A stretch of 64,000 bases of DNA from Owenia fusiformis. Its lineage: Eukaryota > Annelida > Polychaeta > Sabellida > Oweniidae. This document shows positions 1,381 through 63,400 of the stretch, piece by piece. The notes beneath the pieces are model-generated. The model saw nothing but the letters and a program-made list of their open reading frames with translations. It did not search any database and was not told the DNA's origin. The stretch spans positions 17,469,513 through 17,533,512 of the forward strand of contig CAIIXF020000004.1 of NCBI GenBank assembly GCA_903813345.2, in the 5' to 3' direction. A program made the position numbers and the translations under genes. Position 1 is the first letter of the stretch. Each line of letters starts with the position of its first letter.

Positions 1381-2180
1381 ACCTCTGTCTGTATAACAGT
1401 TAATCCTCTCCAACTACATTGTACTTGTGTTGTACTCACCTAATGACTCAGGCTGACTCTGCATTACAGTAATAGAGAGTGCCTCTGTCTGTATAACAGT
1501 TAATCCTCTCTAACTACATTGTACTTGTGTTGTACTCACCTAATGACTCAGGCTGACTCTGCATTACAGTAATAGAGAGTGCCTCTGTCTGTATAACAGT
1601 TAATCCTCTCTAACTACATTGTACTTGTGTTGTACTCACCTAAAGACTCTGGCTGACTCTGCATTACAGTCATGGAGAGTGCCTCTGTCTGTATAACAGT
1701 TAATCCTCTCTAACTACATTGTACTTGTGTTGTACTCACCTAAAGACTCTGGCTGACTCTGCATTACAGTCATAGAGAGTGCCTCTGTCTGTATAACAGT
1801 TAATCCCCTCCAACTACATTGCACTTGTGTTGTACTCACCTAAAGACTCTGGCTGACTCTGCATTACAGTCATGGAGAGTGCCTCTGTCTGTATAACAGT
1901 TAATCCTCTCTAACTACATTGTACTTGTGTTGTACTCACCCAAAGACTCTGGCTGACTCTGCATTACAGTAATAGAGAGTGCCTCTGTCTGTATAACAGT
2001 TAATCCTCTCTAACTACATTGTACTTGTGTTGTACTCACCTAAAGACTCTGGCTGACTCTGCATTACAGTCATGGAGAGTGCCTCTGTCTGTATAACAGT
2101 TAATCCTCTCTAACTACATTGTACTTGTGTTGTACTCACCTAAAGACTCTGGCTGACTCTGCATTACAGTCATAGAGAGT
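1381..2180. repeat. 100-bp tandem array built from REJ exon 16 end plus its splice donor
   Basis: Eight exact-length 100-bp units; the donor-strand motif 'tgtactcacc' recurs at 1431, 1531, 1631 and so on to 2131. On the minus strand each unit reads about 60 nt of the real exon 16 end, then GTGAGT, then about 40 nt of intron. The unit at 2131 belongs to the true exon; the other seven are decoy copies lying downstream of it. Units differ by only a few substitutions, so amplification is recent. Confidence 0.9.
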
Positions 2181-2287
2181 GCCTCTGTCTGTATAACAGT
2201 CGCTTCTTCTCCAACTACTTTGTTCTTCAGCACAACATCAGCAACATCCTTTACTACTTTCATTGTTGTATCTGTGATATCCTTAAT
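2140..2287 (-). CDS. REJ gene exon 16 (post-REJ region)
   Basis: Acceptor 'cccttcag', phase 0, donor GTGAGT. Encodes IKDITDTTMKVVKDVADVV and then a segment ending MTVMQSQPESL. It is helix-rich, like the region between REJ and GAIN in polycystin-1 proteins. Its last ~60 nt and donor are the source of the 100-bp array. Confidence 0.72.
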
Positions 2288-5200: not shown

Positions 5201-8200
5201 TATAGTAGCTTCCATAACATTGCTAGCTCCAGACAAGATAAGACTACAAGATAAAGTACGCAAAAGCATTCACCAGAGGGGTTCACATAGAAGAGATGTT
5301 CACTTACACAAGTTTTATTGAACATGTCTATTAAAAGAATTGTTTTTAGTTATCAATTTTAGATATTGATTTGGCAATTTTTCTCTAAAAATGTAAAGAA
5401 AGGTGTTAATGTCAACACAGTTTTGGTAAAATCAAGTTAATTTGGTTTTCGGAGGGGTAATTATGATTTTTTACAAGTCGAAAATTATGGTTCAGAGATG
5501 TTGTCCAAATCTTGTTTGTGAAGGGGTTAACGATGAATTCATAAAAACAAGACAATTTTTCTATTGATGAGTGAGGGGAACATATTAAAAGAATCTGCTG
5601 ACATGATAAATTATCTAATGATTGGTAGAGACATGATATCAAAGTAACATTTTAAATATCATTTGAAGAATGTAATCCTATTTTCTTAACTTTATTGCTA
5701 TTTTTACTGTTATTGGAAATTGTATATCAGATGTACGTTTGGCCCTAAAAGGGCATCAGTACAAAGAAAATCCTAGTACAAAGTAAGTGAAGATTAAATG
5801 TTGGTTTTCTGAAAAATAAGAGGCAAGAAAAATCATCATTTAAACATTTTAATTGTATGTGGATCGGTATGACGAAGGGGGGGGGGTAACTATAATGACA
5901 TAAGTTCATTTTTCAATAAAGACATACTGACACTATCTCTCAACAATTTTCGATCTTAAAATTTAAACACATGTTTGGCAATTTTTAAGTAATTAACTAA
6001 ATGCAGCAATGTACATGTAGTCACTGCAATTTGAATTGTAAGCATATAATAATGTATTTCATTTGATCCATGCCATTTACATGTACTGTACGCCCGGTAT
6101 TTTTCGCGTGCGATTTAGTTTCGCGCTTTTCGCGACTGTGTTAAAATCGCGAAAATTAATCGTCGCGAATTTCGCCAATTAAAGGCTGAGGTGCAACATG
6201 CCGTTGACTAAGACCTAGAAATTGTAAATCTTATCAAAATATGACATTGGGTAGGTCTTATTACTGTAGATAAGGTAAATTAGTTTACAGATCTTGAAGA
6301 TCCAGAGAATAATGGAATTTAAAACTTTGAAATCCGCGAAATTTAATGGCCGCGAAATTGGTATTTCTCAAAATTCGCGAAACTAAAACTCGCGGAAAAT
6401 ACCAGGCGTACAGTATGTCTTAGACAACTTGTTAATGAAATAAACTGGAATAGGAACAAAAAAGGGTGATAACAATAACATATCTAAAATAACAACTCTA
6501 AAATTGTTAGTTGTCACTTCTTTTAGCAGGAGGTGAACACGACATGGAAATTATGACTTGATCAGGTACAAAGTTTTCAAGTTAGAAATTTCTGATTTCA
6601 TGATATTGGGTTCTTCTGATCATGCAAGAATGTCGGTTAAGTACTGTACATGACTGTAACTAAAGTAGGTTCTTATACCCTCCTTTTATTCCCGGGAATC
6701 ATTCCTCATTATGAAGATTTGAAATGTTAGTCCCTTTGTGTTGAAATAATGTATAGTATGGATTGGTCACCTGTAGTAACTAGATGTCCATGCAGTTTAA
6801 ACTCACAACTGCCTGCCAATGGCAACCACTTTTTTATTGTTGTAAATGGACTAGACTGATCAGGTAATGGACTGAATGCCAATATGTTTAATTGTGAAAA
6901 TGATGATTTCAACCTTTTAATAAATGTGGTCACTAACCTTGCAGCATTAAAGAACATTTGAACAAAACATGTGTTTATCTATATTATGTCTGCATTTCTG
7001 CATTCTACCTTGCAATGTTCTCAATAACTTCTGGACTAATATCTTCTTTACTCTCCACTTTAAACACCAGTATTTTACTCAAGTCTTCAAACACATGTGT
7101 TGCTTTGGACTGCACATATACAAGCATAATTAGTTAGACATACAGTATGAGCAAATAACATGTGTTGCTTTGGACTGCACATATACAAGCATAATTAGTT
7201 AGACATACAGTATGAGCAAATAACATGTGTTGCTTTGGACTGCACATATACAAGCATAATTAGTTAGACATACAGTATGAGCAAATAACATGTGTTGCTT
7301 TGGACTGCACATATACAAGCATTATTAGTTAGACATACAGTTTGAGCAAATAACATGTGTTGCTTTGGACTGCACATATACAAGCATAATTAGTTTGACA
7401 TACAGTATGAGCAAATAACATGTGTTGCTTTGGACTGCACATTCACAAGCATAATTAGTTAGACATACAGTATGAGCAAATAACATGTGTTGCTTTGGAC
7501 TGCACATATACAAGCATAATTAGTTAGACATAATAACATGTGTTGCTTTGGACTGCACATATACAAGCATAATTAGTTAGACATACAGTATGAGCAAATA
7601 ACATGTGTTGCTTTGGACTGCACATATACAAGCATAATTAGTTAGACATACAGTTTGAGCAAGTAACATGTGTTGCTTTGGACTGCACATATACAAGCAT
7701 AATTAGTTCGACATACAGTATGAGCAAATAACATGTGTTGCTTTGGACTGCACATTCACAAGCATAATTAGTTAGACATACAGTATGAGCAAATAACATG
7801 TGTTGCTTTGGACTGCACATATACAAGCATAATAAGTTAGACATACAGTATGAGCAAATAACATGTGTTGCTTTGGACTGCACATATACAAGCATAATTA
7901 GTTAGACATACAGTATGAGCAAATAACATGTGTTGCTTTGGACTGCACATATATAAGCATAATTAGTTAGACATACAGTATGAGCAAATAACATGTGTTG
8001 CTTTGGACTGCACATATACAAGCATAATTAGTTAGACATACAGTATGAGCAAATAACATGTGTTGCTTTGGACTGCACATATACAAGCATTATTAGTTAG
8101 ACATACAGTATGAGCAAATAACATGTGTTGCTTTGGACTGCACATATACAAGCATAATTAGTTAGACATACAGTATGAGCAAATAACATGTGTTGCTTTG

Positions 8201-11200
8201 GACTGCACATATACAAGCATAATTAGTTAGACATACAGTATGAGCAAATAACATGTGTTGCTTTGGACTGCACATATACAAGCATAATTAGTTAGACATA
8301 CAGTATGAACAAATAACATGTGTTGCTTTGGACTGCACATACACAAGCATAATTAGTTAGACATACAGTATGAGCAAATAACATGTGTTGCTTTGGACTG
8401 CACATATACAAGCATAATTAGTTAGACATACAGTATGAGCAAATAACATGTGTTGCTTTGGACTGCACATATACAAGCATAATTAGTTAGACATACAGTA
8501 TGAGCAAATAACATGTGTTGCTTTGGACTGCACATATACAAGCATAATTAGTTAGACATACAGTATGAGCAAATAACATGTGTTGCTTTGGACTGCACAT
8601 ATACAAGCATAATTAGTTAGACATACAGTATGAGCAAATAACATGTTGCTTTGGACTGCACATACACAAGCATAATTAGTTAGACATACGGTATGAGCAA
8701 ATAACATGTTGCTTTGGACTGCACATATACAAGCAAAATTAGTTAGACATACAGTATGAGCAAATAACATGTGTTGCTTTGGACTGCACATATTCAAGCA
8801 TAATTAGTTAGACATACAGTATGAGCAAATAACATGTGTTGCTTTGGACTGCACATATACAAGCATAATTAGTTAGACATACAGTATGAGCAAATAACAT
8901 GTGTTGCTTTGAACTGCACATATACAAGCATAATTAGTTAGACATACAGTATGAGCAAATAACATGTGTTGCTTTGGACTGCACATATACAAGCATAATT
9001 AGCTAGACATACAGTATGAGAAATAGCAAATAAGACCAAAGTTGAAAATGAGATGTTTAACATGTTCATCCATGATCCAAAACTCCCATGGCAGATCTAA
9101 ATTCAACATCACATTTATAAAATTGAAATGTAATATTGCATTATGATTGCTAATACTAAGTTATCAATTGTGCTGAGGTGGAATTGAAGGATAATCCAAT
9201 GTAAGTACATGTAACAAAAACAAGGGGGATAACTCTACTATTATATTTCTATTTTTAAAGCATTTATCAACAAAGCATTAACATGCAAAATGTTACCACA
9301 TACCATTTGTTAAAGAAACCATCCACCAAATGCCAAACATTGTCAACAAAACAAATGGAGACTATAACAAAATGTCACCACTTCTTGTGGTGATATAAAA
9401 TGGTGGAAAGACAGGCCACTAACAGAACAAGTAGAGTAAGGACTGTTTTGCAAGAAGGATGTCCCGTATTGCATTACTTACCTTAGCAGAAGAGGCAAGT
9501 TCCCCACTTTCTAGTGTAACACTATGCAAGGCTCCTGCCTTCTGTTTAAGCACTTTCAGGTCATCTATGCTTGAGTTTGATACTGATGTCACCATAGAAT
9601 CACGGATCTAAAGATAAAATTAATACAAGGCATTAACATGCAAAATGTCACCACCTGCCAAATGTTAAAGATGCTGAATGTCCACAGCCAAACACAGACC
9701 ACCAACTACAAATAAGCCACACGGTGAACAGAATCGCACCCTTGAACAGAATACACTTTTCGGGATGGAAAATTCAAAATGGCCACCTTAACATTTACCC
9801 AGACTGCCTAAAAACTAATCAGTTCTAAACTTTCCATAGAAACATCTCTAAAATTTTAGGATGAATCAATGAAACCTGTAAACAACCCTCAAGAGACACG
9901 TTTTAAGGTATTACTTCACAGTGTATCAGCTTTTTTTCTACAATTCAGATTTTCCTGAAAAAATCCTGGTAAAAGATATACTGATGTATTACAAAATATG
10001 GGAAAATTGACCGTTTAGTTATTTCTAAAAAAGTTTTAATTTAACATTGCTCTCAATGGGAAATTCTTATTTATTTTTTAAAACAAGCCTTCACAGACAA
10101 GATTTTAGGACAAAAAATCCAAAATGGCCACCTTAACATTTACCAAGAATGCCGAAAAACTAATCAGTTCTAAACTTTTATAGGTAGAAACATCCCTGAG
10201 AATTTCAAATGAATCTCTCAAACGGTTTGGCTGGAAACCTGTAGACAAGATTATTCGGGACGCCCGCCCGCCCAACCGCCCGCCCGGCAAACTGATTATA
10301 ATATAGCACCTGAGGGTGCGATAAAAAAAGTTGAAGATAGCAATTGTCACCACCACATAAATTTTTCACTAATGTTTAGTTTTCACCATTTTGAGCACTA
10401 ATTTTTGGCCAAAATTGTCAAATTTAGGCAAAAACTGGCTAGAGTCCTGTGCATTGTACATGTACAAAGATGTCATTGGGTATAGCTACATGTACATGTT
10501 TTTATAGAATTTGTATGTGGAATTGTTGAATTATGGTCATCTATGGATTAGTTCTTCCCTTTGCAGGGTTTACTTGCCTGATTGAGTATAAAGGTATATT
10601 AAACTGTAATTAAGTTCCTCGAAAACCATTTCGTGAGAGGGGTTCAGTATTCCCTGGGGGTCATAACATTATAAGCTCTCTTAGAACATGTAGTTCAACC
10701 TCCCTATTATATCGTAATACTTCATTCACGTTAATGTGGAAATGTCTTATCATAGAATTCTTACCAGGCTTCTTTGCTCCAATGAAGTAGATTTTGTGAG
10801 CGTGTTGTTCTCATTGGATTCCGTATTTAATATGGCAGACACTGTCAATACAAGCTGACTGGCAGCTGGAATCAAAGTTCATAGTCATTTTCTCAAAGGT
10901 TTAGTGAAAAAATTCAACATTAACAGTATTGGATGACCAGATTATATTCTTGACAATTATATACTAGTATCAGATCATCATATCACTTTTGCAATATATG
11001 AATTGTGTAATAAGAAGATTTCTATCTTCCCATTCCTTACTTTTTATTTTCAGTCTTGAATTTGTTCCCACATTGTAAGGATATCTTGGGTTTTCTTGAG
11101 TAACAAGCTGACAAAATACAGTCATAATCATATTATGGACAGGCGACCCCAACATTTTTACCCTCTATTTTTGGAATAACTGTCCATATTGATGGAATCC

Positions 11201-14200
11201 TCTAGATTTTTCTTGTAAAAAGAAAATGGATTCAACATAGTAAGGTTAAGGAAGGGCGTTATAAAATTTTTTGTCTATTCAGTAGGTATGTTATGACATG
11301 CACAAAGTTCTATTTAGTCATATTTTCATTTCAAATATGGCGGCCAATCCGATGTCTAACAACCCTTACAAAAATCTAGGCAGTGTGCATTTTAACCTCC
11401 TGTGAAATAACCACTGGCATTTAGTAGTCATTTTGTGTTTTATATCATTCTGCATCATAATTCTATGTCTTTTGGTGTTAAAACATTAGCAGAAATAATC
11501 GAGTGAATTAGACAACAGAATTTTCGAAAACCGTTTATAAAAACTTGTATTATCATGCTAAAAGTGCGACTGTGCACCTCAATGTCAAGCTAAATTAATG
11601 TTGTGTCTAAAACACATACCTGACCTAATCGCTTGTCATTCAAGTATATATGCTTAGTAAACATAGCAAAATGATCTGAATTTTAGAATTTTGTTCAAAA
11701 CTAGTAATGCTCGCTACATGTCTTCATCATAAGTATTCATCAGACTTTGGGCATGCTCAGGAGAAAATCATCAACCAATCACACCAGTTGGAGATTACCC
11801 GATATCAGTCGGAGAAATCTGACGATCAACAGAAACTCACTTCAAAAAATCAAAAGCGGACTGACGGCGTCTTCTACTATCCTGGGATCTAAGATTTTCA
11901 GTATAGATAAGGTCTTTTGGGATCTTTTGAATGAGGGAAGTCTCTAGTTAAAAAAAGGACAATCGTATCAACTTGAAAAAAGTTGAATTTTTACGAAAAA
12001 TTTTAACATGCGCAGAAGTCCCATTTGCCATTTTGACTGTATTGAATACTGGTAAAGCATGGTTGTTGAGATCTTGTTTACATTTTGAAAAAGCTGTAAA
12101 TTAGTTTGATTTGAACTTGTATGTATTAAACCTTTCTGTTTTGGTACAACTTGAAGTTTATTTGCATCAAATTACATGTAGATACCACAATGCAGATTTA
12201 AGTTACCACCATTTTATTCAGTGGGTTGCATTTTTATTGGCTCACTCTGTACTTTCAAATTACCTTGAATTTTGCCTGATCCTATGAGGTTGTCTAACTT
12301 GCTCTCCTGGCCATTGGTTGTTACAGTGAGATTTGTCAACATCTCTACTAAATCATCTCCATCTTCTGTTATATTTGGGTACACTGTGGACTTCATATGG
12401 TAAGGGTAGACCTGGAAATCATCATTTCAGCTATAAATTTTATTAGATTCATAATGGGTTTATAAATACACACAGATGATAGACCCAATTTGTCTGTTCT
12501 GTTGAAATTAATTCTAATTTTAAATGATCAGATCTCTGAATTCCTTTTATTTCAGAAACTAAAATTAGGATTTTAATGAAAATTTGAAAAAATTGCCTCC
12601 GACGTTTGACACTCTATCTCCTCCAATTCCTGAATTGAAACAATTGAATTCTCTCCTTATTTATATGTATTATTCATAGTACAATGTACCAGACCCTGCA
12701 AGGTTTTTCTCAGCTCTATTATTACCTGCAGAGTGACAACCTCCATAGTGGTTGTTTGAAGATAATCTGTTGCGTTAATATGTATCTCTACTGTGTAGTT
12801 ATTAGCACTGTCCCCAGGAGCTAACTGAACACCCTGTAACTCTGATGCATCACTGGAACCCAGCATAGATCCTGAAATGAGTCAATTACCACAACATACA
12901 GTAAAGGCCAGTAAACTTGTATAAGTAGGTGGAACTAGGCACTGACAGTTTGATATAATGGTCAATAAAGAATGCACATGTATGTACAAAATGTATATAC
13001 AGTAAAACAAAGAGACACATGTAGCATGAAATATGGTGATGATTAAAAGCAGTATGATGTAGATTTCTATATCAATTTGAGAAGCTTGGACGCCATAGGG
13101 TCGGCGTAGAGCAAATGTGAATGAGGCTTGAGTGACTCTTTACCTGTTTGATAAAATAAAATGATGGTGCCACTTTAAACATGCATAGAGAATCCACTTC
13201 CCAAAACACAAATCTTTTTTTCCCCGCTGAGAAATGTTATCAGAACCCAGAACAGCAGTACTCTTCAATTTCCATTATATAACATTATTTTATATCATAT
13301 AACTAACCTGCATTGTCAGAATCCTTCTTATAGTAGAATTCATAAGTAACTGGGATGTCTTCATCTTGGAACTTCTCACAGTGAATGTCAAACTCATCAA
13401 ACAGAGTAACCCCAATAGATGGCAACACAGTACAAGAGCTATATGGAGCTATAGGCGGCGTATTAGTAGTAAACCCGAAAGAGGCAAATCCAGAATCCAG
13501 ACCTGCTCCACTTTTCTTGACACCTACGTTAATAATCAAAGAATTACAAATAAAAGATACATCCTCATTTTATCATCAGACATATAAAATTTTCAAGGAA
13601 AATAATAAAATGACATTTAGTGACTCTATACATACTTTACATTTCTCTTTTAAGCCACTACAAGTACAATTTCCAATAAATTAATATTATAGTATCCAAC
13701 TTTCATGACAATAAAGACAATGCGCCACACGGGAGCCTTAGATTCTATTGATCCATCTTTTTGCAATGTCCAATAAAAGAAGGTTTAGATGTTCATATGT
13801 TCATATGTTCATAAAAATTGTTGATAGTCATGTAATTAAAATACTTGTTTAAAAATAACAATGAGTATAAAGCAACATTAATCCTTTGACAGCAAGTGTA
13901 AAGCTATATCAATCATACCTGTGACATTTAATGTAAAGTTACATCTACTTGTGACAGTGAGTATAATGCTACATCATACCAGTGACAGTGATTACAAAGC
14001 TAGATCATACTTGTGTCAGTGAGCATAAATCTAAATCATACCTGTGACAATGAGTATAAAGCAAATTCATACCTGTAACAGTGAGTATAAGGCTACATCA
14101 TACCAGTGACAGTGAGTATAAAGCTACATCATGACAGGGAGTATAAAGCTACATTATACCTGTGGCAGTTAATGTAAAGCTACATCATACCTGTGACAGT

Positions 14201-17200
14201 TAATGTAAAGCTACATCATACCTGTAACAGTTAATGTAAAGCTACATCATGCATGTGACAATGAGTATAATGCTACATCATAGTGACAGTGAGTACAAAA
14301 CTACATCATGACAGTGAGTATTAAGCTACATTTCACCTGTGGCAGTGAGTATAAAGCTACATCATACTTGTGACAGTGAGTATAAAGCTAAATCATACTT
14401 GTGACAGTGAGTAAAACGTTACATCATACCTGTGACAGTGAGTATAAAGCTACATCATGACAGTGAGTATAAATAAGCTACATTATACTTGTGACAGTTA
14501 ATGTAAAGCTACATCCTACCTGTGTCAATGAATATAATGCTACATCATACCAGCGAGAGTGAGTACAAAGATACATCATACTTGTGACAGTAAGTATAAA
14601 GCTACATGATGAGAGTGACTATAAAGCTACATTTTACCTTTGACAGTGAGTACAAAGCTACATTATACCTGTGACAGTGAGTACAAAGCTACATGACAGT
14701 GAGTATAAAGCTACATTATACCTGTGACAGTGAGTATAAAGCTACATCCTTTTGGGAATATTCCTGGCTTGAAGCTTACAGCTTGACTGGACTGCTCTGT
14801 GAAGCTCATTGTAGCCCAGTCTGAAGGAAAATTTTCATTGGTGATAGGCTTTCAATTGTTGAAGCAATTCTATACATGCCATGGAATTTCTAATTAACAT
14901 TCTAAGGTATATTCATCCATGATAATACTAGGGTATGAACTTTTTAAAAAGAAGAAATTGACAAGGATACAAGTATTTGACATTTTCTCATCGCTTTTCT
15001 GAACAAAAATCCTTTAACATTTGCACATTCAATGTTACTGCGCTTCATTTACTTACCCATTGTGAAGTTGCAGCCAAGAGAACCAATTGACCAATCAAAG
15101 CTGAGATCACTCTGTTGTTGACAGTTAGTACAATGGGCTGCCATGGAGATTTTGCTATCAGAGGTCACCTTGTACTTGCAATTCTGGAGGCATCTACAAC
15201 ATATGGGATAGAAATCATGGGTTTTCAACTAGGACCATACTACACTGGATATTGTGTGTTACCCTGCATTTTAGGGATAATAACCATGACAATGGCAAAC
15301 TTCAAGCACTACGGTAACTTCTAATTCTGGAAGACACATTGACTTTTTATGAAAGTCTTAAACTACTCTTTAGGTTGATTTTTTCCTATTCTGAAATATT
15401 TATTGATAAATTGTCTTTTTTGGCACAACCATAAAATATGGCATTATTCTGAGGGACTACGAAAAGGGACTAAGATCATTTTAATACTACAGTACAGTGA
15501 AACCTGTATATCCAAACATTTTTCTAATCCAAACACCTCTTAATGTGAACACCTTTTCTTGGTTCAAATGTTATCTCCCATAGAGTCACATATAAAGAAA
15601 ACTGTGAAATGTGAACAAATGCTAATCCAATAACTCCTGGCCAGTCAAGTGTTCAGATTAACAGGTTTTACTGCATTACATATATAGGGGTTATGCACTG
15701 GGAGGTTTTGGATACAGGGAATATCCCGAGGGATATACAATATATCTTCCCGAGGGACCAAAGGGACCGAGGGAAGATGTATTGTATATCCCAAGGGATA
15801 TTCAATGTATCCAAACCGACCGTGCATAACTGGTGTATCTCATACTTGAGTGGGTTTAGGGTAGATATAACCTTTTCCACCTTTTTCAAATGACAAGATA
15901 TTTATATTCAACATTTTCGTAATATTCTTTTTGTTCCATACAATGAAATTGTAACATTTAAACTTAAAAAAATTAAATTTTAAAATTAAAACTTTTGATA
16001 TTTAAACTTTTTTAAACTTTTGAAAAATTCCCGGGAGCGGGATGGATATATTATATCTGCCCGCATTTGGCCTGGAGCGGGACATATAGAATATATCCTG
16101 CCCGCTCCTCAGATACGATATATATTCCCGGGTGATATCTACCCGAAACCCACTCAAGTATGAGATACACAGGTGTATTACATACCTAGCGAAGCATTTG
16201 TATGGAAGTCAATGGAAAAGTAGCAGGCTACATGTATATCTACCGATATTCCACGGTTACCCCGTTTTGATATTAGATTTTTTAATAACCATGACAATAT
16301 CGCAACATCATGTTTCATTTCGATTAAAATTCTACTCGCACACAGATGTGTGACGTCATTGATGTAGCTATGGGAATAAAGGTATGTAATACATCAGTTA
16401 TGTCAAAATGGCGTGAAATATGCCTTCGTTCTTGCCCAAATATAGAGCTTCCCAAGGTCAGCAAATATTGGGAAAACTCAGGCATATTTCACGTCATAGT
16501 GACATAAACTCTAAATATATTTTTTATTGTACATGTGACTCGGAGTACAAATTAGGTTTTTTCACATTGATACAGTTATTATCTCTTATTCAAGTGTCAA
16601 ATGTTTAAAAAATGTATATGGGTACTTACAAGACCTGGACATTTGGCTTCTCTGCAGGGACGACTATGATAACTTGAGAGAATGACACTGGGTCTCTCCT
16701 GCCTTTACTGATAGTCACGGTAAACACATAAGTGTCACTCTCGTTTAAAGCACTATTAGGTACAGTAAAGTTATTATCTGAAATATGTCATTGATTTTTG
16801 TATAGTTTCATCTTCATATAGTTCTCCAACTGTTGCTAAACCTAATTTCAATCCAATACTATCATTTGAGATAAACTCACAGTACAAAACAGATTTTCAA
16901 AAATTAATAGTATATATGATTTATTCCATTCTATTATATCCTTAACTTATTCTTATCTTACTCCTAATTAAACATAAATTTGCCTCGCTAATTAATCTTT
17001 GCCTCACCAAATGTCAGATTCTGGAAATATCATTAAACACATGATTCTTAATATTCACATTTAAAAATGAAAATACCTGTTAACACAAGGGAGGTATCAC
17101 TGGACCAAGTTATGCAGGTGCCATTAAAGGCCTCCTCTGTACAGTTACTCAAACCAGGTAGCTCACAGTTCCCATGAAATTTGCTACAAGACCATTCAAA

Positions 17201-39797: not shown

Positions 39798-39799
39798 CT

Positions 39800-42340: not shown

Positions 42341-42341
42341 G

Positions 42342-48400: not shown

Positions 48401-51400
48401 GAGCCTATGTTGGGCCCACTCCAGATTCTATCAGTATCCCATTTACTACAATTTAATTCTATTTCAGGACCATGTTATAAACTACACAGAGGTAGGAGGA
48501 GCCTATGTTGAGCCCATTCCAGATTCTTTCTTATTTACTGTAATTTAATTCTATTTCAGGACCCTGTTATAGGCTACACAGAAGTAGGAGGAGCCTATGT
48601 TGGGCCCACTCAGAGACGCATGCAAAGACTCGCTAAGGAATTTGGAATGGAATGGAAAATTGTTCGAGAAGTAGAGAAGACAGTCCTCAGTTCAAAGGTT
48701 AGCATTTCAAATTGTAGCGGGCTATAGACATTGGCAGACCACGTCCACACTACATTGTGCCAAAATACAATCCTATTTGAAAAATGGGCCTCAGACATGT
48801 TTTGGTCATATTTTTCACATGTGGGAGATGATTGTCCTTTTGTCAACTTCAAGATCTGCCCTAAATGAAAATAAGGTATAATATGAGGTTATATAATGGT
48901 TCTTTCTGTATCACGCGGTAGGATCTCTTCGGGACGTATCGAAACCACTCCGTCCCGAAAAACCGTTAATTTGAATTTAAAACCTACCCCAGTGTTTGAA
49001 AATCAAGGATTGCGAGTCTCACACTTCACCGTTTTTCTTCAAACTTGTTCCGTACAAAGCTTCACAGAAATACCTTTCAGTCGATACATTGTTTTCGTGT
49101 ACAAAGTACCTCGTTTTAGCGGCGTTTTGGTCCCCAGCTGTGAGATAAAGCAAATTTTCATAACTTTCAACTGTAAGTCAAGTTATCTCGCCAGTCTTTT
49201 ACCCATTCTCGCCCATAATTTCAGAATGGACTCCCATTACAACCTTCCATCGCTACGTCTTGATTTTTGGGCATCAAACGCAGCAGTTTCTAAATCATCC
49301 ACACATCTCTTCAAATTTGACCAATACGCCCCGTCATCTTCCACTACGCCCCGCCGAGTCTATCACTTTACACGTAGAGTTGCATTCTAAAACAATTTGT
49401 CCATCGATGTGTCCGTTTGTAGGTTGCCATTGTCGATTCTAAATACCAATCGGATTGTGTTTTAAGATTTACCCATTCTTGTCCATTTTCAATATACCTA
49501 TAATAGGGTGGTCCAAAATCTCCCTAAAATTTAGATTTCCCGATATTGCAATATAAAGATTTAAATTACTGAACAACTGAAAATATTTTTAAGAAACGTT
49601 TAAAGTGCCCTATCCTTGAAAAAATGTGAAAATGCGAAAGGATGGGTGATGTCAATTATATTATTTTCAGCATAACGTTAGAAACATGTATCATTTTATA
49701 TGGTACACGTTTCATAATGTAATCCAATGGAATCATACAGAAGAAAGGTTGACACACAACAGTTAAAATCTTTATATTACATTATCAGACCAAGTCAGTA
49801 GATGTTGTTTATATACCAATTAGTGTTGTATGATGATGCATTCTTTATATGAATCTAGAAACGTTTTTGTGCCAATATTGCTCAATTTTTATAACATCTC
49901 CGTTATTTTGAAATTAAGCGTGGCAAAGTTTCCCGATGGATTTAGCTAAAAAAAGTGGTGCCTGTAGGGTTATTGAAAATCATACATGATGAAGAAAAAA
50001 TACATATTCCTGAAATACAACAGTTTAATTTTGAGTTATAAACCATTTATGAAAACGGCATATTTGTCAAAATTACCAAAAGTTCAAGTGAGACGCGTGG
50101 CAAAATTTCCCAGGGGTCTAGAGTGGAAATATTTGTACCAAGAGTCAATTTGTAACTAGAATCTATCAGATGACAGATTTTTGGAAAATTTTGCAGATTT
50201 GGACAACCCTAACCTATAACTTTGTTGAACCTGAAGAAACGTATCAACTTTTTGTTAAATAAAGATAGCAAATTCAGCTGTCTACTGTACCTAACTTGTA
50301 CTTTTTGCTAGTACTCAGATTGATGGATATCCTGTCGTATGACATGCGACAAACACCGGTGTAAAAGCGTAGGTGGTCCTATCAAATTATGGTCCTAGTC
50401 TCTATTGATTTATATGGTGACCTGATTACAATTATTTTCCTTATTATTTATACACAATCAGGGCTAGAAAGGGCCGTTAGGAAAGGGGACCATAATCCCC
50501 AGGGGACCATAATTTCTTTCACACCGGCTTTGTTAGTACTTTGCCTTGGATGTCATACAGTACATTTACACTGTGGCATGATTTTTAACTCATATCTTTC
50601 GTTATACCATACAAAATTACTTACTCCATGCAATGGATATATCATTTGCGGGTAACTTTCACTTCTGTTTGAAGTCCAATTACGCTCGGAAGAAAAGCTA
50701 TTGAAAATGGCGCCGGCGTATCATACTTCAAAATGTACCACTTCTTGTTTAACTTTCTAATGGCACGATATAGTGACACGATGATATTTACAAATGGTTT
50801 CAGCATAACTATGAAGGTATAAATGAGATGTTGATGTATTTGGTCTTTTTAATTCTTTTATAAAAAATAATGTTTAATTTTTTTGTCCGCTGTGACGGAG
50901 CAGTTGCAAATGTAAACTGTGAAAATGCTCCGTCACAGCGGACAAAAAATATTAATATTATTTTTTATAAAAAAATTAAAAAGACCCAATGCATTAATAT
51001 ATCATTAATACATTCAGAGTTATGCTGAAAACATATGTTAATATTATCATGTCACTGTATCATGCCATTAAAAAGTTAAAAAAGAAATGGTACATTTTAG
51101 AGTTTGATACTCTGGCGCCGTTTTCAATAGATTTTACTCCTAGCGTTATTTGACTTCAAACAGAAGTGAAGGTTACACGCAAATGATATATCCATTGCAT
51201 GGAGTAAGTAATTATCTTTGATATAACGAAACATATGAGTTAAATAATAAATCGTGAAGCATGTTTTTATGAAAAATAGCATGCTCCGTCACAGCGGACA
51301 AATCTTTCGATCCCTGCCTGTGTTGATAAAGGTAGATAGAAGTTTTATTTCAAAGGATGAATTTTAGTAAGCGTCCCATATTGTGACGTCATAGAGTTTG

Positions 51401-54400
51401 AAAAATAGAATCTGTTGACAACGACCTTTTTTGCTCATTTTTTGTTACCTTCAACTTTTCAGGTGTACATTAAACAAAAAATACGAGATCAATTTTTAAT
51501 AAATCATACATGATTATTTTGCTCTTAAACTCTAGTTTATTAATAAATAGTTGATTTTGTTCGCAAAAGTATGTGTTTTTTGTTGTATGTGGAAAAGTGG
51601 AGGACGAAAGGTTTTCAAAATTCATTAAAATAGGGCAAATTTACGCCATTCGCCTATTTTCAAGCACAGCAACACGTATATTTGTTTCACCTAAAATATC
51701 TTTTTGCGACACGTCATAGAATTAAGCAAATAGTGTTATTATCATTTAAGTAGTAACTGCATATGTTTAAAACCACTCTGTTTAAATACAGGTAAATAAA
51801 TAAATATGATGCAATGAAAATTGAAGCTTTCTGTCGAGAGCAATAGTCATCACAATAGTATAGCGTTTTTTCTTTTACATGTTACTTTTTGTACATCATT
51901 GATTGATCCGCTCTAATCTGCCCTCGGCCGATAATTTATAAATTATTTATGTTGAACATTAGCAAAACAGGATTCCAGATTTTATTGTGTTTCAAACCAG
52001 ACACTTGGTTTCCTCACAAAATCAAATACAGGACAATTACATATAATTAAAGTTAAAAAGCAACATCTTCACAAACATTTAAATCATCAATTTCATGCAA
52101 TCAGTTATAGTTATACTCCGTATGTATGCTAAACTTAAGACTGGTGTTAAGAATCGACCAAGGCAAACCTATGTAAAATTACACATCGATGAACAAAATG
52201 TTTTAGAATACAACTCCGCGTTTGTAGTCATAGACTCGGCGGGGCGTAGTGGAAGGTGACGGGACGTATTAGTCAAATTTTAAGAGATGTGTGGATGATT
52301 TAGAAACTGCTGCGTTTGATGCCCAAAAATCAAAACGTAGCGATGGAAGGTTGTAATGGGAGTCCATTCTGAAATTATGAGCGAGAATGGGTAAAAGACT
52401 GGCGAGATAACTTGACTTACAGTTGAAAGTTATGAAAATTTGCTTTATCTCGCAGCTGGGGACCAAAACGCCGCTAAAACGAGGTACTTTGTACACGAAA
52501 ACAATGTATCGACTGAAAGGTATTTCCGTGAAGCTTTGTACGGAACAAGTTTGAAGAAAAATGGTGAAGTGTGAGACTCACAATCCTTGATTTTCAAACA
52601 CTGGGGTAGGTTTTAAATTCAAATTAACGGTTTTTCGGGACGGAGTGGTTTCGATACGTCCCGAAGAGATCCTACCGCGTGTGTATATCGTGTTTATACT
52701 CGAGTGAGTATATAATATATTCACAAGTGAGCGTAGCGAACGAGTGAATATATTATATTCTCACGAGAGTATAAAATGCACGATATACAGAATGAACCAT
52801 TATATAATCTTATTATGCCACTCTATAAGTACAATTACAGTTGATTCGAACACAATCATAACAATTAAAAACCATAAAAATATCCCATAGCCAACTCAAT
52901 AATGCTGATGTTGATCTCGAACCATTTATGACGTGGCTTGATTCTAGGAAATCATGAAAATTTTCATGATTTTTCTTATTCATTAGTTCCCAGAATGCAC
53001 TTCTACAGTGGTATACGCTGGAGTGTATACGGAGGAGTTGTATACGATGAATGACGATATACCACTCTCCACTGTATATCGTTGTTATAGACCCATGTTA
53101 TACAACAGTAATTGGACTTAGAGTGGTATAAAACCCCTTATATAAAAGTTATATAATAATACAAAGTTTTTTGATCATTAAACTGGTAAATCTGAATAAA
53201 CTTTGTAAAGAACTTGATATTACTTGCTTATACATTAAAACTAGTCAAGTGGAACAGGAACACCTTTGTATGTGGAACACCTTTACAGGTGGAACAGGAA
53301 CACCTTTGTATGTGGAACACCTTTACAGGTGGAACAGGAACACCTTTACAGGTGGAACAGGAACACCTTTGTATGTGGAACACCTTTACAAGTGGAACAG
53401 GAACACCTTTGTATGTTGAACACCTTTACAAGTGGAACAGGAACACCTTTGTATGTGGAACACCTTTACAAGTGGAACAGGAACACCTTTGTATGTGGAA
53501 CACCTTTACAAGTGGAACAGGAACACCTTTGTATGTGGAACACCTTTACAATTGAAACAGGAACACCTTTGTATGTGGAACACCTTTACAAGTGGAACAG
53601 GAACACCTTTGTATGTGGAACACCTTTACAAGTGGAACACTACATAGTCTCTAGTTTCATTGACATATAATGTTTATCAAACCTTCTGAGGTGGAACACT
53701 TTATAAGAGGAACACTTTTTAGGGGAACCAAGGTGTTCCACTTACAGAGGTTCTACTTATTGCACATGTTTTTCTGTTTTCCAGACTGGATGGCAAACTT
53801 ACAAAGGAACAATACCTATTATCTATGATCCTATCAAAATATTGGACATGAACAACATATTTCAGATGTTGGAAAAGATGAGTGAAGAGGTAAGCTAATG
53901 TATCAATATTAAAAGACCCTGTGGAAATGAAAGTATTGACCCGTGGGAATTATGGGTCTCCCTTTTATATGACCCATATACAGTAGGCTAATATACTAGA
54001 AGACTGACTTGGAGCTGGATGGCTGAGTATAATTAAATAGAGTCAATATTAAGGGACCCTGTGTAAATGAAAGTATTGACCCGCTGGAATTATGGGTCTC
54101 CCTTTTATATGACCCATATAGGCTAATATACTAGAAGACTGACTTTGAGCTGGATGACTAAGTATAATTTAAATAGAGTCATATTGTAATTGTAACTAAA
54201 ACTAAGATCCTTTGCCCCTCCTTCCTTTGTCTGGACTGTTCGATTCTTCAGAAAATAGTCATAAGATGGAATGAGAGAATTTTGACAATTTTTCAAGCCA
54301 TTAAAACTTTCTTTCAACTTGTCTCTGGTCAATCTTGTCAATTTAAGTTTTATTCTCCTCACTGTCAAGTTTTCAGGTACATCTAATAGTATAAGCACTT

Positions 54401-57400
54401 GTCACCCGATTTCAGATCCCTGTAGAGGCCCCTTGGAAGGCTCCACATGCTGAGGAATGGGACAGTATGACAATGAAGGAATTCATGGACAAGCATTGCT
54501 GGACAGAGTAAGCATATACTTACTTGAATATGTCACACTGTACCTTTATGTCACACTTTATTTGAATATAAACCACATTTAGATAGCAACACAATAGAAT
54601 GAACTGTCATTTATTTTTAAGAATAATCAGCTATAACAAAGTGGGGTGAATTATTTGTCTATTGTTTTTCAAAAATGAACACTTGTCAAGCTATCCAAAA
54701 CCAGTGTGGCACAAAAGAAGATTGACTTTCACATGCTGTGCACTAAAGCTGAACTAACTATACCCTATTTACCCTTTCAATAGTTGAATTGTAAACACAA
54801 AAGAAATCAAACTTTAAACTCTACATACCCTTTTAAATGCAGTGCACTGAAGCTGAACTAATTACACCCACTCACTTCTCAATACACTTACCTCATAGTC
54901 AATACAAAAGAAATCAATTTTTCCTAAAATTGGATTATGGACCACTTACCTTTGAGTCAGAGTCAGTGCCCAGTGTGTGGTTTAAGTTAGATAAACAATT
55001 CATCTTGGGTCTTAGGAAAAAATAATGGCCTCGGGTCTTCGCCCTTGGCCATTATTTTTTCTAATCACCAAGACACATTGTTTATCCATTACATATATGT
55101 TAGACTTCATATATTAGACTTCATGTATTAAATATGTCACATTGTGCTTTATTTAATGTCACATTATATCTATATGTCACACTATACTTGAATTTATACT
55201 ATACTTGAACTTTTATGTCACACTGCACTTGAATTTTTATGTCACAATACATCTGTCAGACTGTATTAAATATGTCACATTCTGCTTAACAATAAATTAT
55301 AGTGAAATCAGCAAGGAAAATAAGTAAACTGAATACATGTACACATTTATTTATTATAGTCAACAATAAGGATAAATATTGTTTAAGGAAGCTCAAGTGG
55401 GGTCTTCAATTTACTAAAGGACAAAAAACAGCCCTTCAATACCTACCTTAACAAATGTAGCTGAAGTTTGTAACTTTGCAAAGCTTTTAGTTATTTGACC
55501 AGTCATGGGCCAATAGTGATGATTTCTCTATTGTTTTGTTTCTAATCTTCAATAACTGTCAGTGTCTTACTCCTCTCCCAATCAACTTGCGTTTTAGCAA
55601 TCAAATGGTCATAAAACCTTAGGAATAGAATAATGTTGTGAGAGTTAAGACCCTATGCATGATTGAACTTGATGGATACAATATGACAGTACAGTGCAGC
55701 CAGCTAAATGAAGACACTCAACCTGTTTTGTAGTGAGACTTACAAACTACATACCATGAGATACATTCATCCTATTGTTAAGGGAAAAGGTGTTGGACTT
55801 CGGGGAAAAATCTGTTTGATGTGGGGTTCATCCTCCATTCAGTGTTCAGATGTGGAAATGTATATAACACTGGATGGGCCCGTATCCAGAATGTGTATAG
55901 AAAGTACTTTCAAAGCACTCTCACGCTTTACCTTTCCTAAATGCTGCATGAAGGATCAGCCTCACACCCAACATCTTGCCCCGCACCCAACTTTCACATA
56001 TATGTGTTTGTTAGGTTCAGTAAGATTAACACAGCATTATTGTGTAAGGCCATTCTATGTTGTGAGGCTCATGAAGTGTCTGCACTCTACTTTATGTGGT
56101 ATATCAAGTGTTATGTGGTTTTAGGTTCAATAAGATTAACACATCATATTGTGTAAGACCATTCTATGTTGTGAGGCACATGAAGTGTCTACACTCTACC
56201 TTATGTGGTATATCGAGTGTTATGTGGTTTTAGGTTCAATAAGATTAACACAGCATTATTGTGTAAGGCCATTCTATGTTGTGAGGCACACGAAGTGTCT
56301 ACACTCTACCTTATGTGGTATATCAAGTGTTATGTGGTTTTAGGTTTAATAAGATTAACACAGCATTATTGTGTAAGGCCATTCTATGTTGCGAGGCACA
56401 TGAAGTTTCTACACTCTACCTTATGTGGTATATCAAGTGTTATGTGGTTTTAGGTTCAATAAGATTAACACAGCATTATTGTGTAAGGCCATTCTATGTT
56501 GTAAGGCACATGAAGTGTTTACACTGTACCTTATGTGGTATATCAAGTGTTATGTGGTTTTAGGTTCAATAAGAATAACACAGCATTATTGTGTAAGGCC
56601 ATTCTATGTTGTGAGGCACATGAAGTGTTTACACTCTACCTTATGTGGTATATCAAGTGTTATGTGGTTTTAGGTTTAATAATATTAACACAGCATTATT
56701 GTGTAAGGCCATTCTATGTTGTGAGGCACATGAAGTGTTTACACTCTACCTTATGTGGTATATCAAGTGTTATGTGGTTTTAGGTTTAATAAGATTAACA
56801 CAGCATTATTGTGTAAGACCATTCTATGTTGTGAGGCACATGAAGTGTTTACACTCTACCTTATGTGGTATATCAAGTGTTATGTGGTTTTAGGTTCAAT
56901 AAGATTAACACAGCATTATTGTGTAAGACCATTCTATGTTGTGAGGCACATGAAGTGTTTACACTCTACCTTATGTGGTATATCAAGTGTTATGTGGTTT
57001 TAGGTTCAATAAGATTAACACAGCATTATTGTGTAAGACCATTCTATGTTGTGAGGCACATGAAGTGTTTTCACTCTACCTTATGTGGTATATCAAGTGT
57101 TATGTGTTTGTTAGGTTCAATAAGATTAACACAGCATTATTGTGTAAGGCCATTCTATGTTGTGAGGCACATGAAGTGTTTTCACTCTACCTTATGTGGT
57201 ATATCAAGTGTTATGTGCTTGTTAGGTTCAATAAGATTAACACAGCATTATTGTGTAAGGCCATTCTATGTTGTGAGGCACATGAAGTGTCTACACTCTA
57301 CCTTATATGGTATATCAAGTGTTATGTGGTTTTAGGTTCAATAAGAATAACACAGCATTATTGTGTAAGGCCATTCTATGTTGTGAGGCACATGAAGTGT

Positions 57401-60400
57401 TTACACTCTACCTTATGTGGTATATCGAGTGTTATGTGGTTTTAGGTTCAATAAGATTAACACAGCATTATTGTGTAAGGCCATTCTATGTTGTGAGGCA
57501 CATGAAGTGTCTACACTCTACCTTATGTGGTATATCGAGTGTTATGTGGTTTTAGGTTCAATAGGAATAACACAGCATTATTGTGTAAGGCCATTCTATG
57601 TTGTGAGGCACATGAAGTGTTTACACTCTACTTTATGTGGTATATCAAGTGTTATGTGGTTTTAGGTTCAATAAGATTAACACAGCATTATTGTGTAAGG
57701 CCATTCTATGTTGTGAGGCACATGAAGTGTCTACACTCTACCTTATGTAGTATATCAAGTGTTATGTGGTTTTAGGTTCAATAAGATTAACACAGCATTA
57801 TTGTGTAAGGCCATTCTATGTTGTGAGGCACATGAAGTGTCTACACTCTACCTTATGTGGTATATCGAGTGTTATGTGGTTTTAGGTTCAATAAGATTTA
57901 CACAGCATTATTGTGTAAGGCCATTCTATGTTGTGAGGCACATGAAGTGTCTACACTCTACCTTATGTGGTATATCAAGTGTTATGTGGTTTTAGGTTCA
58001 ATAAGATTAACACAGCATTATTGTGTAAGGCCATTCTATGTTGCGAGGCACATGAAGTTTCTACACTCTACCTTATGTGGTATATCAAGTGTGGACAGGG
58101 CTTCCATAGACTCATCAGCATCACAAACGGCTCACAGGTAAGTACTAGTAGGTATACTATGTAAACATACATGCTGGTTCTGTAGTTAAACATTTTGTAT
58201 AAGATTGTAAGTAATTTTGTACCAGTTGGACTAAAACCCTATGTACCAGTGTGCTGATGATACTCTAAATGTTAAAATAGCTAAATTAGCACAAGTTATT
58301 TAAAGATTGTGAATTGGATCTTAAAGTGTAAAATTTTGGCTTTGTTCACCAAACTGTGACTTAACTGTCCTTCCTGACCCATCAGTGACCTTTGTCCAAT
58401 TAACCCTGAATCTCCTTAGCTTCTGTGGTGCCTGCAGTAGTAATTTATATGCTTTCTTCCACCTAGTCTTGTTAAAAGTGGAAGAATGCCTTTGGTATGT
58501 CCTAAAAGTGTTCCATGTAAAAATGTTTATAAGTGTACTTACAAATGTTCAAACAATGGGTCATGGGATTTTGCAGTTGTGCACTTACAGCTAGATGTTC
58601 ATAACTTCTTACAATGGGTCATGGGATTTTGAAGTTTTCCACTTACATATCTTCATACAATGGCTCATGGGATGTTGAAGTGTTCTTATTCCAGAGGAGC
58701 TCTTCTTCTACTCTAAATATAATGCACTTACATTCCTCTGCTCATTTACCCATAATGCCCATGCTTTGTATGCGATGGGTTTTCATCTTACAGTTGTGAC
58801 TTTCCTTGGCAAGAATGTATATATTAAATATATAAAAGTAAATAAAAATTACAAAAATGCATGCCATTAAAGATTATATATTTATTCATTTTTATATGAA
58901 CACTAATATTATCTATCTTAATCCATTGAGTGTATACAGTTTACTTTATAACCTTCCTGATTTTACTCTCATACTTACATCATGAGGTAAATTTTTTTCC
59001 ATCAACAGAAACAATAAAATATGTCCATATTATATAATGCATAACTCTAACAGTATCACTTGTGAATATTCCAGTTTTAAGCCCTGGACTCAGTGCAATG
59101 TTTAATGACCATTCCTTGAAGGTGTTGTTTCCAAAATTTGGACGAAATGCGCATCAAGTGTTAATTTTAGAAAACAATGTCTGAAAGGAATGGTTCGTGA
59201 TTGGTAATATAATGCATTGCACTTATATGAAATACTGTGTTCAGATTGGCTGGAATTGGACACACCTTGCGAGTGAATTATTTACCATTTGTTGAGGAAA
59301 ATCTCAAAATCATCAGGCCCTTACCTTTGGCCAGTTGACAATGTTTCATTGACACATTGATACACATTCAATTTATATTTCAAAAGCAAGAATATTCTTG
59401 TTTAACAGTTGCCATTTATAAAAATGTATAAAAGTTTAATATTGTGAATGATACATCTCCCATCTTACTTGCCCTAGCACTCCACATTGTTCTACCACAT
59501 TGAATGACTTGGAACCAATTATTTCTGACTAAGGGAAAGTTAGACCCTTGGTATGGGCTTGAAGAATAATATCTTATCAAAACATTTTTTTATTCTGGGC
59601 ATTTATTCCAAATTTTAGATTTGCAAAGGAAGTATTGACTGCAGCTACAAAATCAATTAATTGCAATGAGCTACATGAGGTATCTCTTCTTTATAACCTT
59701 TTGGGGTTGAAATCTGGAGGAGGCATAATAAGAATAACATCCATAGAAAATGGAGCTCAGGTAAAAATAATGACAGGTTGTATTCCTATAGCCCATGTTA
59801 AAGACATGTGTATGTACTATAAGAGGCCATTGCTTGAACACCAGTTGTCCTCATTCATCATTTATGAACATTAATTGTTGTCTTTGAACATTCATCATTC
59901 AACATTTATAATCTCTGAACAGTAATTGTTTCTGAACATTAATCATATATGAACATTAATTTTTTTCTGAACATTCATCATATATGAACATTTATTTTTT
60001 CTGAACATTCATCATATATGAACATTAATTGTTTCTGAACATTAATCAAATATGAACATTAATAATAGTCCTTGAATTTTTTATTGTCTATTAACATTCA
60101 TTAAGTAATGACCTTTGATAGCAAGTCGCTACTACTGCCTTTATGGCTCGGGGGTAGAGCATCTGTCTTGTGAGCAGGGGGTTGAATTTAGCACATTCCC
60201 TTTCAAGTCTTGTATCTGGCTTGATGAACAACAGATCACCGGACGGACGTGCCCAATGGTCGTGACAAATATTTGTGAGATTCATTGTCTGTCTTCATTC
60301 AATGGTTATGAACATTTGTTGTCTACTGTACAAATATTAATCGTTCATGAAATTCACTGTTCATGGCATTCATTGTCTACTAACATTCATTTGATAACAT

Positions 60401-63400
60401 TCATTGAAAGATTCTATATCAATGACATCCAGTGTAGGAACATGTCGTTACTTTATCCTTGCACGTTACATAGTTACTATTTTATATACATGTAATGTAC
60501 ATGCACTTATAATGATCATTTTTCCTCTTCCTGCTTCCTCTCTCCAGATTTGTTCATATCCATTATGTTCAAGACTGCTATTGTTTGATTGCTTGTTTGC
60601 TTATTTGTTAGTTTGTTTGTTTATTCAAGTTGTATGCTTATTTATTTATTTATTTATTTATTCAATGTTTCCTTAATTGGTGAAGGTTTGTTGCTTTTTT
60701 AGCAGTGTTTATTATTGTTTTTATTTATAGGTATATAGGCTATAATAAGATATTGGGATATTGTGAAGGAAAATATTGATATTAACTGAGGCAGCAGGAA
60801 GGGGCTGAAGAAAGATATCAGTATTTTCCCCATGGATATATCTATCGATTATCTATTCATATTGTATTTATTCTATATTCTGATTTCTAGACCCCTGCAA
60901 CACTTCAGATGATGTGATTTAATCACAAAAATACTAATCTTAATATTCTTTTGCATACATGTATATATATTTATTTTATTTATACATTGGATTTAATGTA
61001 AATATTTTAACTTTATAATTTGATCATATTAAAAACTTTGTTTACACTACATGAGGTACCTCACAACCCATTTAAAATCATGACAAATTAAGATATATTT
61101 ATGGTCGTATTAAAAACGGCAAACATGTACTCAAAAAGTATAAAATCCTGGAGAGAATGCTGATTATCGATACTCTATTTAAGGAGAGGAAACTGATCGG
61201 GGGACTTTCAACACTGCTGGAGAGAATGGCAGAGACTCTAGGGGACAAAGTCCTGCTGTCACATCCTGTCAATCGTATTGAACAGAGAGAAAGTATTGCC
61301 AGGGTCTATTGCGAGAATGGAGAAATGTATGAGGTACATACAATAAGCTTTTAAGAGGTCTTTTAATGTAGTATCAGATCTGTAGTTATGTCCTGTCAAT
61401 CGTATTGAACAGACAAACAATATTGTCAGGGTCTATTGTGAGAATGGAGAAATTTATGAGGTACATACAATAAGCTTTTAAGAGGTCTTTTAATGTAGTA
61501 TCAGATCTGTAGTTATGTCCTGTCAATCGTATTGAGCAGACAGAAAATATTGCCAGGGGCTATTGCAAGAATTGAGAAACATATGAGGTACATACAATAA
61601 GCTTTTAAGAGGTCTTTTAATGTAGTATCAGATCTGTAGTTATGTCCTGTCAATCGTATTGAACAGACAAACAATATTGCCAGGGTCTATTGTGAGAATG
61701 GAGAAATTTATGAGGTACATACAATAAGCTTTTAAGAGGTCTTTTAATGTAGTATCAGATCTGTAGTTATGTCCTGTCAATCGTATTGAGCAGACAGAAA
61801 ATATTGCCAGGGGCTATTGCAAGAATTGAGAAACATATGAGGTACATACAATAAGCTTTTAAGAGGTCTTTTAATGTAGTATCAGATCTGTAGTTATGTC
61901 CTGTCAATCGTATTGAACCAGACAGAAAATATTGCCAGGGGCTATTGCAAGAATTGAGAAACGTATGAGGTACACATCTGTTATTGCCATCCATAATTTG
62001 TGTTTTCGTGATTGCAAGTAAATTGCTGGCATTTTCTAAAATGCTCTCTGGTAGACACTTAAACAAATGATTCTTTTAATGTCAATTCAGTTGTATTGTT
62101 TTATCAATTAGAAAAGTAAGTTCATACTCTGATTAATGAAACATTAATGTAAGGTGTGTTTAATCTGAGAAAATGTGGACGCAATCTTGAAACAATAAAG
62201 TTAAAAATTACATGTTTGGTTGAGATTTGGACAAAACATTTTAACATTGTGTTAAGCATTGATGTCTGAAACTTCATATTGGACTCATGAACTCACTTTT
62301 TTCTTTGTATTTCTCATACATTGTAGGGTAAACATGTGATCAGCAGTATACCTCAAGCGCTACTAAATAGAGTGAGATTTGTTCCACCGCTGCCACCAAT
62401 GAAACTACAATTAATACAAAGGATCCCAATGGGTTCAATAATAAAAACCATGATGTTCTACAAAACAGCATTCTGGAGAGACATGAGTAAGTAGAACACT
62501 GATTTATATAGAAACTTAGACTGCAGTGCAATGCCTTAGGGCATTAAGATAAGCCATCCATTAATTTGTATATCTGTCCATCCCTCTCTTCCTTCTTTGT
62601 CAAGGTGATAACTCAAATCCCACTCGTCAGAATGGATGCTTAAATTAAAGCTGTTTTTAAACACAATTTCTTAAACAAGGGCTGAAGAGAATTCTCTACT
62701 CTTAATAAGAAGATAGCTTAACCCTTCGCAGTGATGATAAACTTTCAAATTTAAGTGGCCAGGCTAAAAAAGATGTGGCTTCATCTATACTACTAAACTA
62801 CCCTAACTAAATCCAGGGTTACAAATGTGTTACCATGTGGTAACAAAAAATAAGGGGACATGCAAAGGTTAATTGTCTGCCTTAATGATTATTTCTTCTA
62901 GATCTAAGTGGCCAGGCTGTAAGTCATGATGGGCCAGTTGGGTACACAATGCCGGATGACTTTGCGGAGGAGAAGAATAGCACACCTGCCATCATGGGCT
63001 TTATTCTGGCCAATGAGAGCAGGGATATGTGTGACATGTCTAAAGAGGAAAGGTGTGTGAATGCAATAGCACTTTGTTTTATCCAGTAATACATCATCCA
63101 TATTTCCATGAAATAAATACGCTTCTAATGTGACCAAGTCAGCTTCTTTAACCCTTTCCCAACGTGAATATATGAGGAAATGTTGGCCTGGTGACTGATA
63201 AGTAAGAGCGGTTTTTAGCTAAAAACTGGAAATGATGTATACCCGGGACCTATTCTTTAAATTTTATCACTAAAATACAATTTTAACAAGCAATATCACA
63301 TGTCAACAACTAGTCAAAATCTGGTGTAAAAATACTGAATAGAACTGGAGACATTGTCATTTCATTGATGTATGGAAATAAAAATAGTGGTCCCAAAAGG

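Follow-up and report, generated by a model that had tools for sequence, protein, structure and literature searches.

Why do tandem repeats in two unrelated genes of the annelid Owenia fusiformis lie at the borders between exons and introns? The question is raised by a stretch of 64,000 nucleotides of contig CAIIXF020000004.1 (C4:17469513-17533512; hereafter the window), in which the original prediction described seven arrays, each on a splice junction. According to our analysis with TRF, all seven arrays (A1 to A7 below) are present, with ends within about 35 bp of those given earlier, and the units, printed in register, differ in length and sequence from array to array, as had been claimed. 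In six of the seven the unit contains the donor or the acceptor of a modelled exon, three of these clean arrays being donor arrays and three acceptor arrays. The remaining one, A4, is marginal and falls one base short, so that the placement on junctions stands for six arrays but not for all seven.

Arrays A1 to A3 belong to a PKD1/REJ-like gene on the minus strand. A1 (1382..2200) is a donor array of 8.2 copies of 100 bp, the functional copy consisting of 61 bp of exon and 39 bp of intron, and begins within the exon at 2140..2287, which ends at 2140. The acceptor array A2 (7093..9025; 30 copies of 65 bp, with 48 bp of intron and 17 bp of exon) leads into the exon at 7009..7108, which starts in gene sense at 7108. 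A3 (13858..14748) is a degenerate donor array of 29.7 copies of about 31 bp with 75% matches, and begins within the exon at 14722..14820, which ends at 14722. The PKD-like exons match the REJ profile PF02010 with 65 bits in a Pfam profile search, and within the stretches compared they have relatives in one to three of the paralogues on contig C6, for which we took the three PKD-like loci L017, L018, and L019 (P17, P18, and P19). The A1 exon shares 86% amino acid identity with P19, 75% with P17, and 67% with P18; the A2 exon has relatives in all three, and the A3 exon is 68% identical in P19.

The other host is a monoamine-oxidase-like (MAO-like) gene on the plus strand (47775..63709), for which a spliced-alignment model gives nine exons: 47775-47870, 48560-48697, 53785-53889, 54416-54507, 57996-58137, 61184-61333, 62327-62486, 62902-63052, and 63553-63709. 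Taken in order, these align colinearly with MAO-B and match PF01593, and every internal splice site is canonical (GT at the eight donors, AG at the eight acceptors); the outer ends are where the model stops and not splice sites, and by the AG the first exon starts at 47776. The exons of both genes can thus be regarded as real, in agreement with the earlier reading. A5 (48040..48611; 6.2 copies of 92 bp, with 40 bp of intron and 52 bp of exon) and A6 (56001..58092; 19 copies of 110 bp, with 13 bp of intron and 97 bp of exon) are acceptor arrays leading into the exons that start at 48560 and 57996, while the donor array A7 (61264..61974; 5.6 copies of 127 bp, with 70 bp of exon and 57 bp of intron) begins within the exon ending at 61333. 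A4 (47055..47774), at the acceptor of the first modelled exon, is covered by overlapping TRF rows with units of 31 to 158 bp and stops a single base short of the last intron position (47775); one of its seven listed upstream copies reads TTTATAGGTTTGAG, and six of the seven are without a splice site. The predicted MAO model reads through by using the exon-adjacent copies of the units.

Two 142-nt stretches resembling a MAO exon, at 57996-58137 and 59619-59760, lie 1.5 kb apart in the same frame; both resemble MAO-B residues 158-205 and have AG and GT at their ends, with an array at the first only. To judge from their sequences, they are probably mutually exclusive alternative exons. In a muscle myosin gene (C9:37986009-37994334), one stretch of the myosin head (profile 18-84) is matched twelve times at spacings of 0.3 to 1.9 kb, apparently by a large group of alternative exons. 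Elsewhere in the window we observed a tandem array with units of about 124 to 136 bp outside the modelled exons (35104-36454), a LINE-like element whose long open frame encodes a reverse transcriptase domain (31914-33200; PF00078, 109 bits), and, on the minus strand, a 190-residue open frame (39253-39825) that has no match in Pfam and shows, by eye, several hydrophobic stretches. Two 30-bp arrays (21883-22064 and 22704-22846) with reverse-complementary units face each other, much as the termini of a non-autonomous transposable element do; locus L004 has a comparable 34-bp pair (4575-4711 and 5297-5442), which is in direct orientation.

The position of the junction within the unit varies freely, from 97 bp of exon plus 13 bp of intron to 17 plus 48, as expected for duplications with free end points. 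Duplication of whole exons does not describe the six clean arrays of the window, in which the exon part of the unit (17 to 97 bp) is shorter than the exon; only the A2 exon, in P18 and P19, was found repeated in units that hold both splice sites. It had also been stressed that arrays of donors follow their exons and arrays of acceptors precede them. This arrangement holds, but we do not accept it as evidence, since it follows automatically from the geometry: when the end of an exon is duplicated together with the start of its intron, the left flank remains exonic, and a readable exon results only if the array is on the intron side, the mirror image applying to acceptors.

The arrays place many decoy sites beside each functional one. 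All 7 decoy donors of A1 and all 4 of A7 are GT, the decoy acceptors of A2 (29), A5 (5), and A6 (18) are all AG, and GT is kept in 25 of the 28 aligned decoys of A3. The six clean arrays thus hold 88 intact decoys out of 91 aligned, or about 89 with the one in A4, so that the "roughly a hundred" decoy sites counted earlier was a fair estimate. Decoys differ from the functional copy at 0.5 to 15% of positions. Across 16 clean arrays from the window and other loci, the dinucleotide is intact in 157 of 160 copies; the three mismatches compare with 19.5 when adjacent columns are drawn at random (P = 0.0065) and with 15.2 when the dinucleotide is taken from other places in the unit (0 in 20000 draws). 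Copies of one array are not independent of one another, however, and A1 and its P17 relative, both among the 16 arrays, have a common origin. The decoy count includes a kinesin array in L040 (C2:23266359-23269174; 18 copies of 159 bp), a locus picked for its array and kept out of the enrichment counts below. It leaves out A4, L007, L025, L028, L031:1-415, and the P18 arrays; in A4 and L025 sites are unclear or lost, the site being absent in six of the nine L025 decoys as placed.

Decoy retention hints at constraint on the splice dinucleotides, and the main rival explanation builds on it. By this account, the decoys, or binding sites for factors within them, aid or buffer recognition of the flanking exon, so that arrays at junctions persist while intronic ones decay. 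The intact decoys speak for such selective retention, and so does the presence of copies of the A1 junction in all four genes examined, namely, the window gene and its three C6 paralogues. So many intact decoys (157 of 160) would not be expected if the arrays were purely neutral, although the excluded arrays, A4 and L025 among them, weaken this point. Because of those arrays, together with the shared ancestry and non-independence noted above, we did not adopt selection on decoy sites, and selective retention appears to us unlikely, if the strongest of the rivals.

The paralogues bear on the same matter. TRF copy numbers at the A1 junction, which compare paralogues within one assembly and not alleles, are 8.2 in the window, 4.7 in L017, and 13.6 and 3.7 in two blocks in L018, while L019 has no TRF array at this junction but three degenerate extra copies read by eye. 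The A3 exon, covered only in P19, has a few degenerate copies behind it in that paralogue (by eye), and the A2 exon is repeated whole in P18 (4.9 copies of 172 bp) and P19 (two copies) and is single in P17. That the A3-like copies in P19 are degenerate only, and that the A2 exon lacks an array in P17, argue against retention by selection. Taken together, the comparisons at the A1, A2, and A3 exons suggest that the arrays are long-lived and recurrent: they seem to outlive gene duplications, to turn over internally, and to have arisen at least twice at one exon.

Whether junctions attract arrays is a question that the window itself answers poorly. In its two modelled segments, a junction lies within 6 of 10 arrays where 1.08 would be expected (P = 1.4e-4), but the window had been picked for its arrays and the PKD exon ends in this test were set by hand. 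Enrichment was therefore tested on 37 other loci (16 myosin and 21 kinesin; 486 junctions) of the 498-Mb O. fusiformis assembly of 525 contigs. A genome search for myosin heads and kinesin motors gave 19 myosin and 38 kinesin gene clusters, of which we took 16 of the myosin clusters and 21 of the 22 kinesin clusters with a matched span of about 2.5 to 9.5 kb (the 22nd, at C12:20.25 Mb, was left out). Loci were chosen before their arrays were inspected, and longer genes are under-represented. Genes were modelled by building family profiles from the loci themselves and then spliced models, and arrays were counted from a TRF period of at least 20, at least 2.5 copies, and a score of at least 100. 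For the null, one unit was placed at random in the locus, with the extra copies removed, and scored for a junction. Modelled exons shorter than 30 bp were ignored (one falls in an L003 array), L013:2-209, next to an unconfirmed terminal exon, was scored as non-junction, and reading of the sequence led us to accept the terminal junctions of L025, L029, and L031; in L007 and L028 only about 4 bp of exon lie inside the array.

Of 34 arrays in these loci, 12 contain a junction against 4.53 expected (P = 1.7e-4), with 7 donor and 5 acceptor arrays among them; the myosin loci contribute 6 of 16 (2.82 expected; P = 0.026) and the kinesin loci 6 of 18 (1.71 expected; P = 0.003). The comparison of tandem repeats with random placement that had been proposed for the whole genome thus comes out positive on this sample. 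In L012, a myosin locus, a single intron has a donor array at its 5' end (7 copies of 83 bp) and an acceptor array at its 3' end (12 copies of 91 bp), and a third array (4 copies of 260 bp) lies at another acceptor. The kinesin locus L031 has three junction arrays, and donor arrays occur in L004 (7 copies of 129 bp), L014 (4 copies of 41 bp), and L029 (3.7 copies of 91 bp). Three arrays similar to A4 (L032:7446, L033:2787-2896, and L032:7132-7236) end 6 to 21 bp from a modelled exon and do not include the junction; these are possibly junction arrays beside an exon end modelled slightly short.

The excess varies with the way it is counted. It is weaker when only interior junctions are scored (9 of 32 against 4.12 expected, P = 0.008; 6 of 17 against 2.71, P = 0.02, for myosin, and 3 of 15 against 1.41, P = 0.15, for kinesin), and amounts to 12 of 35 against 4.97 (P = 7e-4) when placements inside exons are excluded, the totals of 34 and 35 differing by L004:1467-1573 (2.4 copies). 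Two looser settings of the array thresholds give 13 of 49 against 6.89 and 13 of 42 against 6.86 (both P = 0.007), and stricter ones give 11 of 25 against 3.95 (P = 1e-4). Counted per locus, 8 of the 20 loci holding arrays have a junction array (3.72 expected; P = 0.007). With a margin of 8 bp on each side, the figures are 10 of 35 against 3.94 (P = 0.001) for all loci and 6 against 3.21 (P = 0.046) per locus. Without the two richest loci, L012 and L031, they are 6 of 28 against 2.34 (P = 0.02), or 4 of 28 against 1.83 (P = 0.10) with the margin as well, P values lying between 0.01 and 0.10 for counts without these loci. Apart from the interior-junction counts, the number of junction arrays in these variants ranges from 4 to 13 where 1.8 to 6.9 would be expected, with P values from 1e-4 to 0.10. 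In strata by unit length drawn post hoc, 9 of 12 arrays with units of at least 40 bp contain a junction (3.42 expected). No excess was seen when unspliced homology hits served as the exon set (3 of 18 arrays against 3.27 expected); this set was rejected in favor of spliced models as too incomplete, with divergent exons missed.

The excess of arrays at junctions is modest, 2- to 3-fold. The original prediction had called chance placement very unlikely; an excess is indeed there, but it is not overwhelming, since units of 76 to 129 bp cover a junction by chance 12 to 38% of the time in these loci. Chance must accordingly be weighed as an explanation in its own right: duplications would fall anywhere in exon-dense genes, and the window would look special because a reader had picked it. 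Besides the high chance coverage, the small size of the independent excess favors this account, as does the fact that half of the junction arrays sit in L012 and L031. Against it stand the P values overall, in each of the two families, and per locus, and we deem it quite improbable. The suggestion of a wider process likewise survives in part, as the arrays recur above random expectation in unrelated genes (myosin and kinesin) and on other contigs, but only at this 2- to 3-fold level; R-loops, the spliceosome, and replication slippage, named earlier as examples, are candidate mechanisms for it. A general attraction of arrays to exons is not supported, since the 23 junction-free arrays lie at random distances from exons (mean rank 0.49, SE 0.06); the excess at junctions is therefore not a by-product of such attraction. 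That an assembler multiplied the junction sequence is barely credible, given that decoys diverge from the functional copy, that units differ between genes, and that A1 junction copies recur in three paralogous loci, even if one comparable array in amphioxus was apparently misassembled in a draft genome, according to the available text of PMC3087553.

The structure has a precedent that the original prediction did not mention. As judged from sequence, it is the same as that of the amphioxus "mirage" minisatellites, which the parts of PMC3087553 and PMC3902484 available to us describe in Adh3, the globin genes BflGb6 and BflGb9, troponin C, and PGBD5, with units of 10 to 72, 60, 108, 150 to 160, and 157 bp. 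There, too, the unit spans a 5' or 3' exon-intron boundary, a good number of copies, though not every one, keep AG or GT, the copy attached to the exon is the authentic one, and copies evolve in concert within an array. The Owenia arrays share the boundary-spanning unit (six of seven in the window and 12 of 34 in the other loci), the repetition of both 5' and 3' boundaries, and, except in A4, the retention of splice dinucleotides in many copies. They differ in belonging to another phylum, in having units of 29 to 260 bp, and in occurring in several genes of one genome, where their excess over chance was measured and arrays were compared between paralogues. Protein matches in the genome likewise point to a lophotrochozoan, probably an annelid, and not to amphioxus: the muscle myosin head scores highest (660 to 675 bits) with the scallop and squid chains 1dfk, 1b7t, 2ec6, and 3i5f, ahead of Myosin-6/-7 (up to 620 bits) and fly muscle myosin (557 bits), and the erythrocruorin-linker family PF16915, which is not known outside annelids, has three matches above its cut-off. 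The GFP family gave no match, in the controls as little as here.

We therefore think that the arrays are probably mirage-type minisatellites, that is, segments of junction DNA that were duplicated, expanded, and homogenized and are tolerated in splicing. A short segment straddling a splice junction would be tandemly duplicated in the DNA, and ordinary tandem-repeat turnover, by unequal exchange or slippage, would then expand and homogenize the array. Tolerance may come from exon definition, in which splice sites are paired across the exon: a partner site at exon distance would be available only to the copy that is continuous with the remainder of the exon, and the decoys would leave with the intron. 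Splicing around the arrays would then be correct. For amphioxus, evidence from Adh3 and from RT-PCR of globins suggested that arrays of this type leave splicing undisturbed (PMC3087553). Less securely, the excess may reflect a higher local rate of tandem duplication at exon-intron borders, a mutational bias, and not selection on decoys; we prefer this reading, since arrays seem to have arisen more than once at one exon and those without a junction are placed at random. A bolder proposal, which we consider speculative and rather unlikely, is that a transcription- or splicing-linked lesion makes these borders hotspots of tandem duplication, seeding thousands of junction minisatellites whose decoys are kept by selection and which form a reservoir for new splice sites, exons, and introns.

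Related repeats are known elsewhere. In the model of Rogers (as cited in the available part of PMC3087553), introns are gained by tandem duplication of AGGT proto-splice sites, and human genes in segmental duplications hold variable tandem repeats, some at exon-intron boundaries (PMC2812944, in the text available), which makes the latter a partial precedent outside amphioxus. What both share with our arrays is that DNA is duplicated locally in tandem and that the duplication includes or reaches splice signals. As described in these partial sources, however, new introns are formed and the repeat is often kept in the exon, whereas in Owenia an existing junction is multiplied on the intron side and no gain of an intron is seen. 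Minisatellites inside introns are also reported for C. elegans, in connection with splicing decisions (PMC4039745), and for an annelid, in the first intron of an earthworm metallothionein gene (PMC12783039); the accessible text of these two reports does not describe units that span a junction.

Gene predictors will face many near-exact copies of splice junctions in genes of this kind. To our knowledge, mirages are known only from amphioxus, and no mirage-type arrays under that name were found outside amphioxus among the matches listed from the open-licence literature, a body of work beyond which most subscription papers lie. What is new here is the occurrence of junction arrays in several lophotrochozoan genes with a measurable excess, by which a curiosity becomes something that can be counted. 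With tens of equal decoys beside one used site, the arrays are natural tests of exon definition, and also of the instability of splice-junction DNA and of intron gain by duplication.
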